64,000 nucleotides of DNA from Sinorhizobium meliloti (GTDB taxonomy: Bacteria > Pseudomonadota > Alphaproteobacteria > Rhizobiales > Rhizobiaceae), in assembly GCF_035610345.1 (NCBI RefSeq), contig NZ_CP141213.1, positions 868,001 through 932,000 of the forward strand. The letters run 5' to 3'. The notes under the pieces were generated by a model. That model was not told the origin of the DNA, did no database searches, and saw nothing but the letters and a program-made list of their open reading frames with translations. Positions 26,669 through 31,439 of this stretch are shown piece by piece (position 1 is the stretch's first letter; each line of letters begins with the position of its first letter). The position numbers and the translations under genes were made by a program.

Positions 26669-26733
26669 GCCGGCCGCAGCGGCACCATGGTCCGGCCAGG
26701 TTGCGCGAATGGCAACCGGATGGATATCCCTTC

Positions 26734-26761
26734 CTGCAGCCTCTCGTCCGGGAGGCTGCAG
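26734..26761 (+). terminator. minCDE terminator hairpin
   Basis: Stem CTGCAGCCTC (26734-26743) with GAGGCTGCAG (26752-26761) and an 8-nt loop, perfect over 10 bp, followed by tacggctttcg. Confidence 0.65.
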
Positions 26762-26793
26762 TACGGCTTTCGCCTGGCCACCGCGCCCCGTCG

Positions 26794-26831
26794 TCGGACT
26801 TTCGTCCGAATCACATCGGACGATCGTCCGA
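26794..26831. promoter_or_regulatory. Tandem TCGGAC-N4-GTCCGA operators upstream of emmA-like gene
   Basis: Two 16-bp inverted repeats, TCGGACTTTCGTCCGA (26794-26809) and TCGGACGATCGTCCGA (26816-26831), have centres exactly 22 bp apart. They lie 217 bp upstream of the glycine-rich protein gene, whose neighbour is a LuxR-type response regulator. A related dyad lies upstream of the second glycine-rich gene. The rest of 26832-27048 shows no gene. Confidence 0.65.
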
Positions 26832-27048
26832 CCGGCAAAAGCGAAACGTCTGAGACACCCCGATTGCAGTTGACGCACCGGTCAGGCCGTGACCAAAGAT
26901 GGCGCAACAGCCGGCGAAAGCGAATGTCGGGCTTTCCCGGTGGACTGTTGTCGGGTCGGCGACGACGCCGACGATCGGTGATAGCGTCAAGGCATTCGCG
27001 AGACCGCGATCAGGCGCATCCCGGTAAAAACTCTTCAGGAGGAGCGTG

Positions 27049-27516
27049 ATGGTCACGCGTCGAAACTTTCTTGCAGCACTGTGCTGGGTTTCGGTCGGCC
27101 TTCCCGTCGCCGTATCGCCTTACAAAATCGCGCTGTCGGGCTCAGGCATCGAACTGGAACCGCAATCCGCTCTCGCCAAGGGCGGTGGTAGCGGCGGCGG
27201 GCGTGGCGGTGGCGGCGGCGGCGGCGGACGAGGCGGTGGCAACGGCGGCGGACGAGGCGGTGGCAATGGCGGTGGAAACGGGGGCGGCGGCGGAAACGGT
27301 AAGGGCGGCGGCAATTCGAATTCCGGCCGGGCAAGCGGAAGAGCAACGACGTCCGTGGAAGGGGGCGGCTCCATCCTGCGCGTACGTCACCGGGACGGCA
27401 TCAGCGAGGTGATCGAAGACGCCCGTTACATCATGAAGGATTCGCGCGGGCGCACTATTGTCAACCGGCGGGCGACGTCGGCCGACCGGAGACGGCTTCT
27501 CTCCTTCATTGACTGA
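27049..27516 (+). CDS. emmA: Exported glycine-rich protein, EmmA-like
   Basis: 155 residues. A signal with an RR motif (TRRNFLAALCWVSVGL) leads to a mature part whose residues about 45-95 are almost only Gly with Arg, Asn and Ser (GGGRGGG, GGNGGG units). A conserved-looking C-terminal domain follows (SILRVRHRDGISEVIEDARY). ATG 27049 has AGGAGG 5 nt upstream. The symbol rests on memory of the S. meliloti emmABC locus, a small exported protein with a two-component pair affecting exopolysaccharide and motility. Its stop overlaps the regulator stop tail to tail by 11 bp. Confidence 0.62.
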   Translation: MVTRRNFLAALCWVSVGLPVAVSPYKIALSGSGIELEPQSALAKGGGSGGGRGGGGGGGGRGGGNGGGRGGGNGGGNGGGGGNGKGGGNSNSGRASGRATTSVEGGGSILRVRHRDGISEVIEDARYIMKDSRGRTIVNRRATSADRRRLLSFID

Positions 27517-28165
27517 CCGGACGCCAGTCGAGCGCGTCGCGCAGCACCATGGCGGCCTCCGTCCGGTTGGCGACGTCGAGCTTCGCCATGATCTGCGTCA
27601 TGTGATGTTTCACCGTTTTCTCGTGCAGATCGAGCTTTCGGGCAATCTGCTTGTTGCTCATTCCCGAGGCGACGAGGTGCAGGACCTCCTGTTCGCGCCG
27701 CGTCAGCTCGGCAACGAGGTTGGATTTGGCCGGTGCGGGATTGGCCAGCTGGCCCGTCAGCAGCTTGGCGGAAAGGGTGGGGGCGACATAGCTCTCGCCT
27801 GAGGCGACGGTGCGAATGACGTCCGCCAGCGCCCTCGCACCGATCCCCTTGAGAATGTAACCCTTCGCGCCTTCCTTGAGAGCTGCAGCGACGTCGTCAT
27901 TCGCCTCGGAAACGGTCAGCATGACGATCTTCTGCGCGGGCGCGACGCTCAGGATCGCCGGAATCGCGTTCAGCCCGCCGCCCGGCATGGAGATGTCGAG
28001 CAGCATCACATCAGGGTTGAAATTTTGCGCGATCGCGATCGCCTCGTCCCGCGACCCGCCTTCGGCAACGACCTCGAACCCGTCGATCTCCGACAGGCTC
28101 CGTGTCACACCCTCCCTGAACAAGGGGTGGTCATCGACCACGGCTACTCGAATTCCCGTCATCAT
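27506..28165 (-). CDS. emmC: NarL/LuxR-family response regulator, EmmC-like
   Basis: 219 residues. The receiver domain has VVDDHPLFREGV, phospho-acceptor Asp57 (VMLLDISMPGG) and Lys in KGYILKGIGA. The C-terminal LuxR helix-turn-helix (LTRREQEVLHLVASGMSNKQ to KTVKHHMTQIMAKL) binds DNA. It overlaps the kinase stop by ATGA, and a ggag site lies 6 nt before the ATG at 28165. The GGAC-N4-GTCC dyads flanking the locus are candidate sites. The symbol is by remembered gene order. Confidence 0.72.
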   Translation of the reverse strand: MMTGIRVAVVDDHPLFREGVTRSLSEIDGFEVVAEGGSRDEAIAIAQNFNPDVMLLDISMPGGGLNAIPAILSVAPAQKIVMLTVSEANDDVAAALKEGAKGYILKGIGARALADVIRTVASGESYVAPTLSAKLLTGQLANPAPAKSNLVAELTRREQEVLHLVASGMSNKQIARKLDLHEKTVKHHMTQIMAKLDVANRTEAAMVLRDALDWRPVSQ

Positions 28166-29634
28166 GCCTGCTCCGTTTCCTCAAAACCGATCGACATCCG
28201 GACAATCGTGCCGGGCGCGTTGGGGTTGATCTCGAATGTTCCGCCGAGGCTCTCGACCCGGCCTTCAAGGCCCGCGAGACCGAGGCTCGTCGGCCGTACG
28301 TCTTTGGGGTCGAAGCCCGGCCCGCCGTCTGCAACCTCGACGGTAACCTTGTCACCCTTCGTACTCTGCGTCACGCGCTGCGCGATGCCGCCGCCGTGAC
28401 GGTAGGCATTGTTAAGCGCTTCCTGCACGAAACGGTATATGCAGATCTTCGCCGATGCCGAAAGGCGCTCGGGCGGGTCGGTCATCGACAACTCCACGGT
28501 GGTTCCCGTTCGTTGTTCATGGGCGTGGACGCAGCGCTCCAGAATTTTCCTCAGGCCGGCGGTCTCTATCTGCGGCAGGACCAGCCCGCTGCACAGCGTT
28601 CTGATCTCGTTCATCGCCTCGTCGAGGCTGCCCTTGATGGCGGCGATCTCACGCTCGCGCAGTTCGGCGGGCGTCGTGGGGCTGACAAGCTTGTTGCTGT
28701 CCAGTCGCAGGGAAGCATAGGCCACGAGTTGCGCCGGCCCGTCATGCAGATCGGCGCCGATCCGCCGCAACAGGGTCTCGTTCAGCGCGGTCGCTCGCTG
28801 GGAGGCCTGGCGCAGGCGCCCGCGCAGTGTCTCGTTCTGCGCAAGCAGCGCCGAAAGCTCGTCGACGCGCTGCGCAAGCGCATGGCGCTGCTTCTCTATC
28901 GTTCTGCTGCCGCGCAGGACGATGGCCGAAAGGGCGATGAAGAAGGCGAGCGTGAAGCCGGCAACGGCGAGCCACGTGTGAAGCCTCGCCCGATTGAGGC
29001 TCTGCTCGAATTCGTCGGCAATCTCGTGGAATTCCGAGACGGCGACCACCTCGCCGGACCAGGGTTGGAGAAGGGGATTGTAGATCTCCAGGAGAGGACT
29101 GCTCGAAAGGCGCTCCGTCTCGCCGTCGGCCTCGTCGAGAGGCATGAAACGAGCGACCATGCCGCCGTCGAATGCCGCCGTCAGCTCCGGACCCAGCTCA
29201 TACTTCTGACCGACCATGGCCTTGTCGCTCGAATAGAGAACCGTGCCGTCGGCACGCCAGAGGCGAAATGAAGCAAGCCGATCACCCAAAGCGCCCTGCC
29301 CAAGCGTTTCGTCAAGCGCCCGTGCCACCGAATCGTCGAGCACCTGCGTCGTTTGCATGTCGGGCAGAAGCGGCGCAATCACGCTATCGACATAGAGCGC
29401 CGTGGTGGCCGCGGAGTTGCGCGTCACGGCGTCCTCTATAAGGCTCGTCACGAAGGCGCCGACGACGAGCATCGCCGCGGCGGCTACAGAGCCACCGATA
29501 ATGAGGAACTGCTTCGCCAGCGGCTGAGAGTTCCACCGTCTGATGAGGGCGTCGACGTGCACGAGAGATCTCACGATGGCCCGCTCAATTCGTCGCCGGC
29601 ACTGCTGCGTTCTTTGCAACCGCCAAATTAGCAT
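28162..29634 (-). CDS. emmB: NarL-type sensor histidine kinase, EmmB-like
   Basis: 490 residues. Two membrane helices (about 44-66 and 222-242) enclose a periplasmic sensor region. The HisKA_3 box follows with the phospho-acceptor His near residue 297 (IGADLHDGPAQLV), then a C-terminal HATPase domain (NAYRHGGG, DGGPGFDP, GLAGLEGRVESLGG). The cognate regulator gene overlaps its end. The start is uncertain: TTG 29652, ATG 29634 and GTG 29574 are all in frame, and none has a strong ribosome site; ATG is chosen. The symbol is by remembered gene order. Confidence 0.75.
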   Translation of the reverse strand: MLIWRLQRTQQCRRRIERAIVRSLVHVDALIRRWNSQPLAKQFLIIGGSVAAAAMLVVGAFVTSLIEDAVTRNSAATTALYVDSVIAPLLPDMQTTQVLDDSVARALDETLGQGALGDRLASFRLWRADGTVLYSSDKAMVGQKYELGPELTAAFDGGMVARFMPLDEADGETERLSSSPLLEIYNPLLQPWSGEVVAVSEFHEIADEFEQSLNRARLHTWLAVAGFTLAFFIALSAIVLRGSRTIEKQRHALAQRVDELSALLAQNETLRGRLRQASQRATALNETLLRRIGADLHDGPAQLVAYASLRLDSNKLVSPTTPAELREREIAAIKGSLDEAMNEIRTLCSGLVLPQIETAGLRKILERCVHAHEQRTGTTVELSMTDPPERLSASAKICIYRFVQEALNNAYRHGGGIAQRVTQSTKGDKVTVEVADGGPGFDPKDVRPTSLGLAGLEGRVESLGGTFEINPNAPGTIVRMSIGFEETEQA

Positions 29635-29691
29635 TTCCGGCCGGCCGGTCAACGCGCGCCATCCCTTACCCCTTGGTCATAGCGCATCTTG

Positions 29692-29726
29692 GGACTTTTG
29701 ACGACCGGGCCCACGGACCTAAGTCC
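29692..29726. promoter_or_regulatory. GGAC-N4-GTCC dyad upstream of second glycine-rich gene
   Basis: A perfect 12-bp dyad GGACCTAAGTCC (29715-29726) is preceded by an imperfect copy GGACTTTTGACG (29692-29703). Their centres are 23 bp apart. It sits between the divergent kinase gene and the glycine-rich gene at 29850 and matches the core of the tandem operators at 26794-26831. Confidence 0.5.
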
Positions 29727-29849
29727 AATCAACCGGCGCATTGGTCCGGCGGCGGTGGAACCCGCACCAGTTGCACGCTATCGCTTAATCAATTGAAGCA
29801 GAAAATCGGCCGCAGCAACAACGGCCGCGACTTTCGATAGGAGGCCCTC

Positions 29850-30608
29850 ATGCCTATTTCCAAATTCGTCGGACGAGGTCTTATTGCGCTGGCGCTCGCA
29901 GGCGCTCCCCTGGCGGGCCTTGCACCCGGCATGTCGGACATCGCATTCGCCAAGGGCGGCAATGGCAACGGTGGCGGCAATGGTGGCGGCGGCAACGGCA
30001 ATGGCGGCGGCAATGGCGGGGGCCACGGCAATGGCGGCGGCCACGGCAAGAGCGGAAGCCACGGCAATAGCGGAAGCCACGCGAAGGCCCGATCCGATTC
30101 GGGCAGATCGGGCGGCGAGCGCGCGGGCACGCCGCGCTTCCTCCAGGACCTGTTCAAGCACGGCAGGAAGTCCGGAAAAGCGGCGCACGGCAAGTCCGGG
30201 AAGTCCGGTAAGGTAGTAAAGGCCAGGGTGACGGAAACGGCTGTCCCGACGCCGAAGCCCAAGAATCCGCAGGCCGAAACGGCAAAGCTGAGCTCGCTCG
30301 GCCGGAACTATCACGCCTACCTGAACTCGAACGATCCGCGAATGGCGGCAATCTCCGCCTATGCGATCGCCTATGCAGAGTTCGAGGCGGAGTTCGGCTC
30401 GGACGTCATCCCGACCGATCCGGCTCTCAGCGATGAAGCGCTGCGCGAGGCGATTGCAAGCTTCACGAATGGCGGCGAAGTGACGGATGCGACACTTGAG
30501 GACGTCAAGGAAACGCTTGGCGTCGGATCGTCCGTCGGGAAGATAGACGATATTCGTGAGCACCTTCTCGACACGACGCCCGATGAGGACGTCGTGATCG
30601 AAGACTGA
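29850..30608 (+). CDS. Exported glycine-rich protein
   Basis: 252 residues. A Sec signal (GLIALALAGAPLAGLAPG, cut near IAFA) is followed by a Gly/Asn/His repeat region (about 35-75, GGNGGG and GGGHGNGG units) and a basic Ser/Lys region. A structured acidic C-terminal half (about 140-252) contains YHAYLNSNDPRMAAISAYA. GGAGG precedes the ATG. It shares the layout of the EmmA-like protein across the kinase/regulator pair, and a related dyad upstream suggests joint control. No family name is known to me for the C-terminal part. Confidence 0.82.
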   Translation: MPISKFVGRGLIALALAGAPLAGLAPGMSDIAFAKGGNGNGGGNGGGGNGNGGGNGGGHGNGGGHGKSGSHGNSGSHAKARSDSGRSGGERAGTPRFLQDLFKHGRKSGKAAHGKSGKSGKVVKARVTETAVPTPKPKNPQAETAKLSSLGRNYHAYLNSNDPRMAAISAYAIAYAEFEAEFGSDVIPTDPALSDEALREAIASFTNGGEVTDATLEDVKETLGVGSSVGKIDDIREHLLDTTPDEDVVIED

Positions 30609-30629
30609 CCGGGCGAGGCGCGTCGCCGG

Positions 30630-31439
30630 ATGGAACATTTGAGAAGATTCGACCGTGTCGTCGGCGCCGTGACCCAAGCGATGCGGGAGGGACGGATAGG
30701 CTTCTCGCTGCAACAGGTCAATGCGGTCGGCGATACGGGCGAGGTGCTCTATTCGGAATGCCTAGGCAGGCTCGTAGAACGTGACGGAGCGGTCAGGACG
30801 AGCGAGGAATTCACGGCTTTTCTCGAAGCGTCGGGACGCGTTGCGTCATTCGATCGATACATGCTCGGTCTCGCATTCGAGTGGCTCGACTGCAATCCGT
30901 CAGGCGTGTTGGGTTGCGATATCTCGGCCGGGAACATTCTCGACGAGAACACTTGGTCGGAACTCTACGATCTGCTTTCGCGAAATCGGGAAATGGCCTC
31001 GCGCCTGGTTCTCGAGATAACGGAGTGCCTGCCGCTGGCCACCCTGCCGATGGCGGCGGAGTTCATTGAAGGCGCGCGCGAACTGGGCTACAGAATCGCC
31101 CTGGACAGTTTCGGAACGGGTCACTCGACGCCGGAATCGCTGTTGTCCATTCCCGTCGACATCGTGAAACTGGACGCATTCTTCATCGGCCGCGGCCAGG
31201 GCGGGGGCAAGGGGTTCCTCCATCATTTGGTGGGGCTCGCTTCCTGCGTTGCGCCGACGGTGGTCGTCGACGGCATCGAGACCTACGGACAGCTCGAAGC
31301 CGTCAAAAAGGCCGGCGCAACGCATGTGCAGGGCTTCCTTCTGTCCGAGCCGACGCTGTACCCGGTCTATTGCGGCCAGCCCGCGCCGCTGCCGGCCGCC
31401 ATACGCAGATCTGCGGGATCGCGGCAGCTGCATTCCTAG
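30630..31439 (+). CDS. Degenerate EAL-domain protein
   Basis: 269 residues spanning one EAL domain with no sensor domain. Catalytic positions are altered: the EAL signature reads SECLGRL, the metal-binding Asn position reads CDISAGN, the DDFGTG motif is DSFGTG, and the usual EGxET is DGIET. ITE and the Lys in VDIVKLD remain. I predict no c-di-GMP phosphodiesterase activity; binding or a protein-interaction role is possible. It begins 21 bp after the glycine-rich gene and is probably co-transcribed. ATG 30630 has a weak site. Confidence 0.82.
   Translation: MEHLRRFDRVVGAVTQAMREGRIGFSLQQVNAVGDTGEVLYSECLGRLVERDGAVRTSEEFTAFLEASGRVASFDRYMLGLAFEWLDCNPSGVLGCDISAGNILDENTWSELYDLLSRNREMASRLVLEITECLPLATLPMAAEFIEGARELGYRIALDSFGTGHSTPESLLSIPVDIVKLDAFFIGRGQGGGKGFLHHLVGLASCVAPTVVVDGIETYGQLEAVKKAGATHVQGFLLSEPTLYPVYCGQPAPLPAAIRRSAGSRQLHS

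Follow-up and report, generated by a model that had tools for sequence, protein, structure and literature searches.

Tandem GGAC-N4-GTCC Dyads as Candidate Operators of the EmmC-Like Response Regulator in Sinorhizobium and Its Relatives

Gene Organization and Dyad Sites at the Locus

We analyzed a 64-kb stretch of Sinorhizobium meliloti DNA (contig NZ_CP141213.1; C2:868001-932000 in our numbering), hereafter the window, which belongs to a 1.82-Mb replicon of a 6.63-Mb genome, and focused on a two-component system and the GGAC-N4-GTCC palindromes (dyads) that lie on both sides of it. The gene order is minC-minD-minE-glycine-rich protein 1-regulator-kinase-glycine-rich protein 2-EAL-L,D-transpeptidase, the same as in the annotated S. 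meliloti ml66. An exported-protein gene, a NarL/LuxR-type response regulator (PF00072, E 2e-21; PF00196, E 9.5e-22; both above the cut-off) and a HisKA_3 kinase lie side by side, which is the EmmABC layout; on these gene features the locus is presumably emmABC, and the matched database records name no emm gene. The EmmABC system of S. meliloti was reportedly described by Morris and Gonzalez in 2009. According to the available text of one source, it comprises a secreted protein, a sensor kinase, and a response regulator, and affects exopolysaccharide, motility, and stress (PMC3233446).

An earlier note on this DNA had described a kinase/regulator pair flanked by two unlike genes for exported glycine-rich proteins, with two TCGGAC-N4-GTCCGA sites 22 bp apart before the first gene and, in the divergent gap before the second, a dyad with an imperfect copy 23 bp away; the open reading frames (ORFs), domains, and sites were all found in the places described (table 1). 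The kinase start given in the ORF list (TTG, 29652) is probably too early, and the GTG at 29574 was preferred because the annotated S. meliloti kinase gene is 1413 bp long.

Table 1. Features of the emm-like locus, in window coordinates
Feature	Position	Strand	Remark
Dyad site 1, TCGGACTTTCGTCCGA	26794..26809	.	Upstream of first glycine-rich gene; conserved in genus
Dyad site 2, TCGGACGATCGTCCGA	26816..26831	.	22 bp from site 1
Half site 3, AGCGAAACGTCT	26840..26851	+	22 bp from site 2; not in the earlier note
Conserved TTGACG, candidate -35 of first glycine-rich gene	26870..26875	+	18 bp behind half site 3; putative promoter role
First glycine-rich exported protein (EmmA-like)	27049..27516	+	
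NarL/LuxR-type response regulator (EmmC-like)	27506..28165	-	Response_reg + GerE
NarX-type sensor histidine kinase (EmmB-like), HisKA_3	28162..29574	-	GTG start by comparison with the S. meliloti gene
Candidate kinase-regulator promoter, TTGACC...TAATTT on minus	29625..29652	-	-35 is GGTCAA on plus; -10 by eye
Site A, GGACTTTTGACG (minus strand CGTCAAAAGTCC)	29692..29703	-	Outer site of leftward array toward kinase
Central dyad B, GGACCTAAGTCC	29715..29726	.	Common to leftward and rightward arrays
Site C, GCGCATTGGTCC, half site of rightward array	29736..29747	+	21 bp from B; not in the earlier note
GTGGAA, weak candidate -35 of second glycine-rich gene	29755..29760	+	By eye in window; putative role
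Second glycine-rich exported protein	29850..30608	+	
EAL-domain protein behind second glycine-rich gene	30630..31439	+	Conserved neighbour

Conservation of the Dyad Arrays in Sinorhizobium/Ensifer

The tandem GGAC-N4-GTCC-N10-GGAC-N4-GTCC upstream of the first glycine-rich gene occurred at one place in the whole genome, and TCGGAC-N4-GTCCGA was found only in that upstream region and in the divergent gap; the reversed control pattern occurred at one place. Among the 31 other genomes of the genus, 30 carried an orthologue of the regulator with at least 78% identity, and the genome that missed it (G008) is 70% complete. Thirty-one regulator loci were taken from the genus, one being a second copy in G003. 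The check proposed in the earlier note, whether the tandem sites are conserved before emmA and before the second gene, was carried out with a positive outcome: the 22-bp pair was retained in 24 of the 27 loci anchored through the first site, the window among them, and the central dyad of the gap was kept in all 29 loci that have the second glycine-rich gene. Relative to the consensus RGAC-N4-GTCY-N10-RGRC-N4-GTCY, 20 of the 24 retained pairs showed no departure and 4 showed one. The loci outside the 27 comprised L041, L052, and L058, in which emmA is not at the locus and displaced arrays were found elsewhere, L054, in which the array was not located, and L064, a 65% paralogue. This last locus (G003:C1:1993688-2004329) is a second regulator-kinase copy, accompanied by an EmmA-like gene of its own and by tandem dyads close by.

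Across the 24 loci, mean identity was 0.925 at the core positions compared with 0.70 at the other positions of the 56-bp array (permutation 0.0002); the outer TC...GA letters are unconserved beyond the clade of the window, whereas the RGAC-N4-GTCY core is conserved. Of the 33 genus genomes, 24 had one and only one perfect match to the three-site pattern, and its reversed control gave none in any genome. In G002, G005, and G006, about 5-7 kb separate the three-site match from the regulator, and an EmmA-like gene (51-56% identity) stands directly behind the match; the array thus follows the gene.

Within the divergent gap, every one of the 29 loci with the second gene has site C at +21 from the central dyad, and 28 of them have site A at 22-24 bp. 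Arrays elsewhere take the form GGACYTWAGTCC-N10-NGNCAAAGGTCY followed by a promoter-like element; sites B and C together read in this canonical form toward the second gene, and B and A, on the other strand, read toward the kinase. A possible assignment of the gap array to the second gene alone was ruled out by this second reading. In four relatives from outside the genus (L141-L144), this gap contains a strong array, which points to the kinase. The central dyad thus serves arrays in both directions, and therefore emmBC is probably autoregulated through the shared dyad. In two Ensifer aridi-type loci (L037 and L038), emmA, the regulator, and the kinase are present, but the second glycine-rich gene and the EAL gene are missing, as is the gap array.

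Spacing between the Arrays and Promoter-Like Elements

The distance from the array to the candidate -35 falls into discrete classes. For the first gene, it is 18 bp in 4 loci of the clade of the window, 28 bp in 9 loci, and 29 bp in 11 loci; for the kinase, it is 27-30 bp in 25 loci and 39 bp in 4 loci of the clade of the window. An 8-bp class for the kinase promoter was rejected, as six loci have two GGTCAA copies and the conserved one lies at 28 bp. At the second gene, G[TC]GG is found 7 bp from the array in 22 of 29 loci; in the window itself the script ended at a GCGG further ahead, and the GTGGAA was picked by eye. In front of the hairpin RNA described below, the array ends 8 bp before a TTGC-like -35 in all 21 promoters fitting the pattern (22 given). 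With 10.5 bp taken per turn, these classes share one helical phase (mean resultant length 0.98); because they had been noticed ahead of the phase test and represent few independent changes, this agreement is suggestive. Such phased spacing would suit an activator that contacts RNA polymerase from a single face.

Co-occurrence and Linkage of Array and Regulator across the Family

We searched 297 genomes of the family for the array pattern (at most 3 mismatches) and for the regulator (E 1e-40 or better); after removal of 5 genomes of the same genus, 82 were regulator-positive and 210 regulator-negative. Array sites numbered 59 in 32 of the 82 positive genomes compared with 17 in 17 of the 210 negative genomes, each place being counted once, and the reversed-pattern control, whose counts add both strands, gave 22 and 62, respectively. 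At 2 mismatches or fewer, the contrast was 23 sites in the 82 positive genomes versus 1 in the 210 negative genomes. Moreover, 27 of the 59 sites, in 21 genomes, lie within 5 kb of the regulator gene, compared with about 0.15 expected for 5.5-Mb genomes, and G272 carries an array beside both of its regulator copies. Among named loci, an array was present at 39 of 51 Rhizobiales regulators compared with 1 of 28 distant NarL-type regulators. The sites are thus conserved and co-occur with the regulator gene, as is expected of operators of a linked regulator.

We then considered 40 fetched family loci, 20 chosen for a linked array and 20 that are regulator-positive and mostly without a linked match. 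The kinase was found in 38 of the 40, and in 58 of 70 loci, genus and family together, an EmmA-like gene is oriented toward the regulator. A position matrix built from 16 array sites scored at least 15 in 6 of the 20 loci that are mostly without a linked match, and nothing reached 14 in 2.6 Mb of dinucleotide-frequency sequence.

Resemblance of the Regulator and Its Sites to DosR and NarL

The nearest solved relatives of the EmmC-like regulator are NarL, VraR, and DevR/DosR; the best match is NarL 1a04 (E 8.9e-37), and by score the regulator stands closer to NarL and VraR than to DevR. The kinase core matches the NarX, UhpB, and MctS models, with scores far below the curated cut-offs. NarL heptamer sites are unlike the GGAC-N4-GTCC dyads.

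The DNA sites resemble those of DosR/DevR of Mycobacterium. In the available excerpts, the DosR box is given as TTSGGGACTWWAGTCCCSAA, containing GGAC-TWWA-GTCC (PMC2275270), with base contacts through Lys179, Lys182, and Asn183 (PMC4082495) and cooperative binding of several sites, the nearest of which overlaps the -35 (PMC3029386). The GGAC-N4-GTCC core with A/T-rich centres is common to the DosR box and the Emm dyads; the inner 12 bp (GGAC-N4-GTCC) fits the array sites, the outer DosR letters were not seen in them by eye, and the sites were not assigned to the DosR regulon. In an alignment derived from the Protein Data Bank, DevR EKTVKN (residues 178-183) stands opposite EmmC EKTVKH, so that two of the three base-contacting residues (Lys179 and Lys182) align with EmmC lysines, and all 71 EmmC orthologues compared retain the EKT[VI]K core. 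VraR also has a recognition helix similar to EKTVK. As described in the sources at hand, the DosR system differs in phylum, in its heme-containing sensor (PMC4082495), and in the genes that it controls.

The Larger Predicted Regulon and a Hairpin RNA

Beyond the locus, the canonical array also occurs in the same genome at C2:565454, C1:724020, C1:1246606, C2:1714588, and C3:605743 (control 0), with a weaker array at C1:3063613. Two more places with 3 mismatches (C2:27984 and C2:816341) were obtained alongside one control match, and a match of a looser scan (C2:309936, L296) was not counted because it lies inside a long ORF. In eight genus genomes, 14 forward and 16 reverse array matches were found, some places matching on both strands, compared with 0 and 2 for the control. 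The genes behind these arrays include, as judged by eye, a small membrane protein (L094/L090) and a penicillin-binding-protein-like ORF (L294). A family of 55-69-residue proteins (DDVELALALACE...IIRL..REWL..YGF) lies directly behind an array in several species (L290 1751-1918, L092, L095).

A hairpin RNA was found behind the arrays in 10 of the 21 array loci examined. In the ten sequences, both-sided changes are kept in 7 of the 14 pairs of its 14-bp stem, a value that none of 500 shuffles reached, and the loop is GTCCCTTCT in most copies. The hairpin model matches 31 of the 33 genus genomes, whereas the 292 other family genomes, searched with stricter filters, gave one match (E 9e-4). This lone match (G126:C2:215080-215143) lies about 4 kb from the regulator gene of that genome and may be due to chance. 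The hairpin loci (L259-L288) number one to several copies per Sinorhizobium genome, and those of the genome analyzed here are at C1:723881-723943 and C1:1246470-1246533. An array is located 97-121 bp upstream of the hairpin in 27 of 30 loci, a proportion that is not independent for the ten copies behind arrays from which the model was built and for their orthologues; L280 and L287 have none, and L282 was left out of the 27 because the locus is cut at a contig end, although its coordinates put an array 100 bp upstream. The copies share promoter and RNA across about 200 bp. Rfam gave no family at the hairpin in the array loci searched, with only transfer RNAs, one ar35 (L093), and sub-threshold matches elsewhere in them, and no match on the 64-kb window. 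Some copies precede small ORFs, and the hairpin may be either a small RNA or a leader. In G001 (Ensifer aridi type; L096/L276), an array and a hairpin lie ahead of another exported glycine-rich protein of about 77 aa, the third of this kind, and the divergent ORF there resembles a PqqD/RRE protein by eye. In the available text of an S. meliloti start-site study, three de novo motifs are given, all different from the array motif.

Exported Proteins and Replicon Context

Both flanking ORFs encode a signal-like N-terminus, as judged by eye, and a glycine-rich stretch, and neither protein matched Pfam or NCBIfam at the thresholds used. We presume that the N-terminus of the first protein is Tat-like (TRRNFL). 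Common to the EmmA-like proteins is a C-terminal domain (VRH.DGISEEIRNGRYIMKDARGRTIVNRRATSAD..RL; residues about 110-154 in the first protein of the window), which was modeled with four strands and a helix at a predicted local distance difference test score (pLDDT) mostly above 90; the glycine-rich stretch was of low confidence, and a fold search with the EmmA model gave no match at E 0.001 or better. The conserved C-terminal region of the second protein differs from that of the first, and its structure was predicted with a mean pLDDT of 41.6. The EAL gene is perhaps on the same transcript as the second glycine-rich gene.

The best plasmid matches to positions 26670-30620 were in Sinorhizobium sp. 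K101, C101, and M103 (Phaseolus), at 99.2% across the full 3951-bp query. Records of the S. meliloti pSymB type matched at about 92% across the whole interval with no emm gene named in the matched rows, and one record of this type has the gene order of the window (minCDE, hypothetical, regulator, kinase, hypothetical, EAL, L,D-transpeptidase). In the passages available, emmABC of S. meliloti is placed on pSymB by one source (PMC12239276) and on the chromosome by two reviews. Behind minE, a GC-rich inverted repeat at 26734-26761 (CTGCAGCCTC...GAGGCTGCAG), terminator-like by eye and with no clear T-run, separates minCDE from the emmA array.

Proposed Mode of Action and Alternative Explanations

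Taken together, these comparisons support a regulatory role of the arrays well beyond chance, and we consider it highly likely that EmmC, the regulator encoded next to the dyads, uses them as its operators in the following circuit. EmmB, which by eye is a membrane kinase with an extracytoplasmic region, would phosphorylate EmmC, and EmmC dimers would bind neighbouring GGAC-N4-GTCC dyads on the same face of the DNA, at a spacing of 22 bp or two helical turns. Bound upstream of sigma-70-type promoters, EmmC would activate both glycine-rich exported proteins, emmBC itself, small genes elsewhere, and the multi-copy hairpin RNA; we infer that EmmA and its glycine-rich counterpart, once exported, probably exert feedback on EmmB or on the envelope. 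The suggestion of the earlier note that a LuxR-type regulator reads the tandem sites has gained weight because, across the family, the sites co-occur with the regulator gene and are physically linked to it, and because the dyad core is identical to that of the DosR box. Likewise, comparative evidence speaks for its proposal that the dyads and the second glycine-rich gene form a joint regulon, which is predicted to be larger than the two genes.

Several observations weigh against this interpretation. The 22-bp pair was lost in 3 of the 27 anchored loci (L043, L046, and L047), and the phase test was post hoc. Outside the genus, 50 of the 82 regulator-positive genomes are without an array at 3 mismatches or fewer, and 12 of the 51 named Rhizobiales regulator loci also lack one, so that the site presumably drifts or is missed by our pattern. 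Finally, at the third DosR contact (Asn183), EmmC orthologues have His in 67 of 71 cases and never Asn. EKTVK-type helices are common in the NarL family; thus, the likeness of the helices is consistent with reading of the sites by EmmC but not decisive.

The most serious alternative is that EmmC reads the arrays as a repressor, with EmmC or EmmC~P holding the glycine-rich genes off until a signal arrives. Sequence alone does not fix the sign of regulation, and mutations of the emm locus raise succinoglycan in S. meliloti, according to the available text (PMC3233446), which indicates that some functions are held down, directly or not. However, the sites lie upstream of the candidate -35, off the core promoter and at whole-turn distances, which is the layout of an activator; the arrays end at exactly the same distance from the -35 in every fitting RNA promoter, and the promoter-like element of the second gene is weak. 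Repression is thus unlikely. We regard it as less probable still that a DNA-binding protein other than EmmC reads the arrays: linkage and motif similarity are indirect, and 32 of the 59 sites found outside the genus have no regulator gene within 5 kb, but the near-absence of the better-matching sites from regulator-negative genomes and the linkage in 21 genomes, including both regulator copies of G272, argue that EmmC itself very probably does so, although no systematic search for other regulators was made. That the dyads are a dispersed repeat or a mobile intergenic element without regulatory function appears very improbable; the hairpin copies, which share their promoter and RNA, may have spread by duplication, but the arrays of the two glycine-rich genes share little beyond the dyads, as judged by eye, the central dyad persists at every locus with the second gene, and the distances to the promoters are phased. 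Chance palindromes in GC-rich intergenic DNA, to which the number of single GGAC-N4-GTCC dyads in the window, unremarkable by itself (3 seen compared with 1.42 expected; 17 of 100 shuffles reach 3), would point, are refuted by the conservation and by the uniqueness of the tandem in the genome, and their probability is close to nil.

Implications for the EmmABC System

The locus in the window resembles EmmABC in its secreted protein, kinase, and regulator, and differs in that the dyad arrays, the joint second gene, the shared divergent dyad, and the wider regulon were absent from the EmmABC descriptions found, as far as their available text goes. The open-access literature searched yielded no described EmmC binding site or direct target. 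NarL-type regulons with tandem operators are known, but that literature appears to describe neither the operator nor its shared use in both directions nor the RNA output. We tentatively propose, as a possibility that could well prove wrong, that EmmBC is an envelope-signalling system, widespread among Rhizobiaceae, with a DosR-like operator code, and that Sinorhizobium recruited an array-driven, multi-copy structured RNA as a second output layer, which could carry the exopolysaccharide and motility effects. Candidate direct targets to which the conserved operator points include emmBC, the second glycine-rich gene, and the RNA family that has no Rfam match. A poorly understood envelope-signalling system would thus become a defined and testable gene circuit in relatives of the nitrogen-fixing partner of alfalfa.

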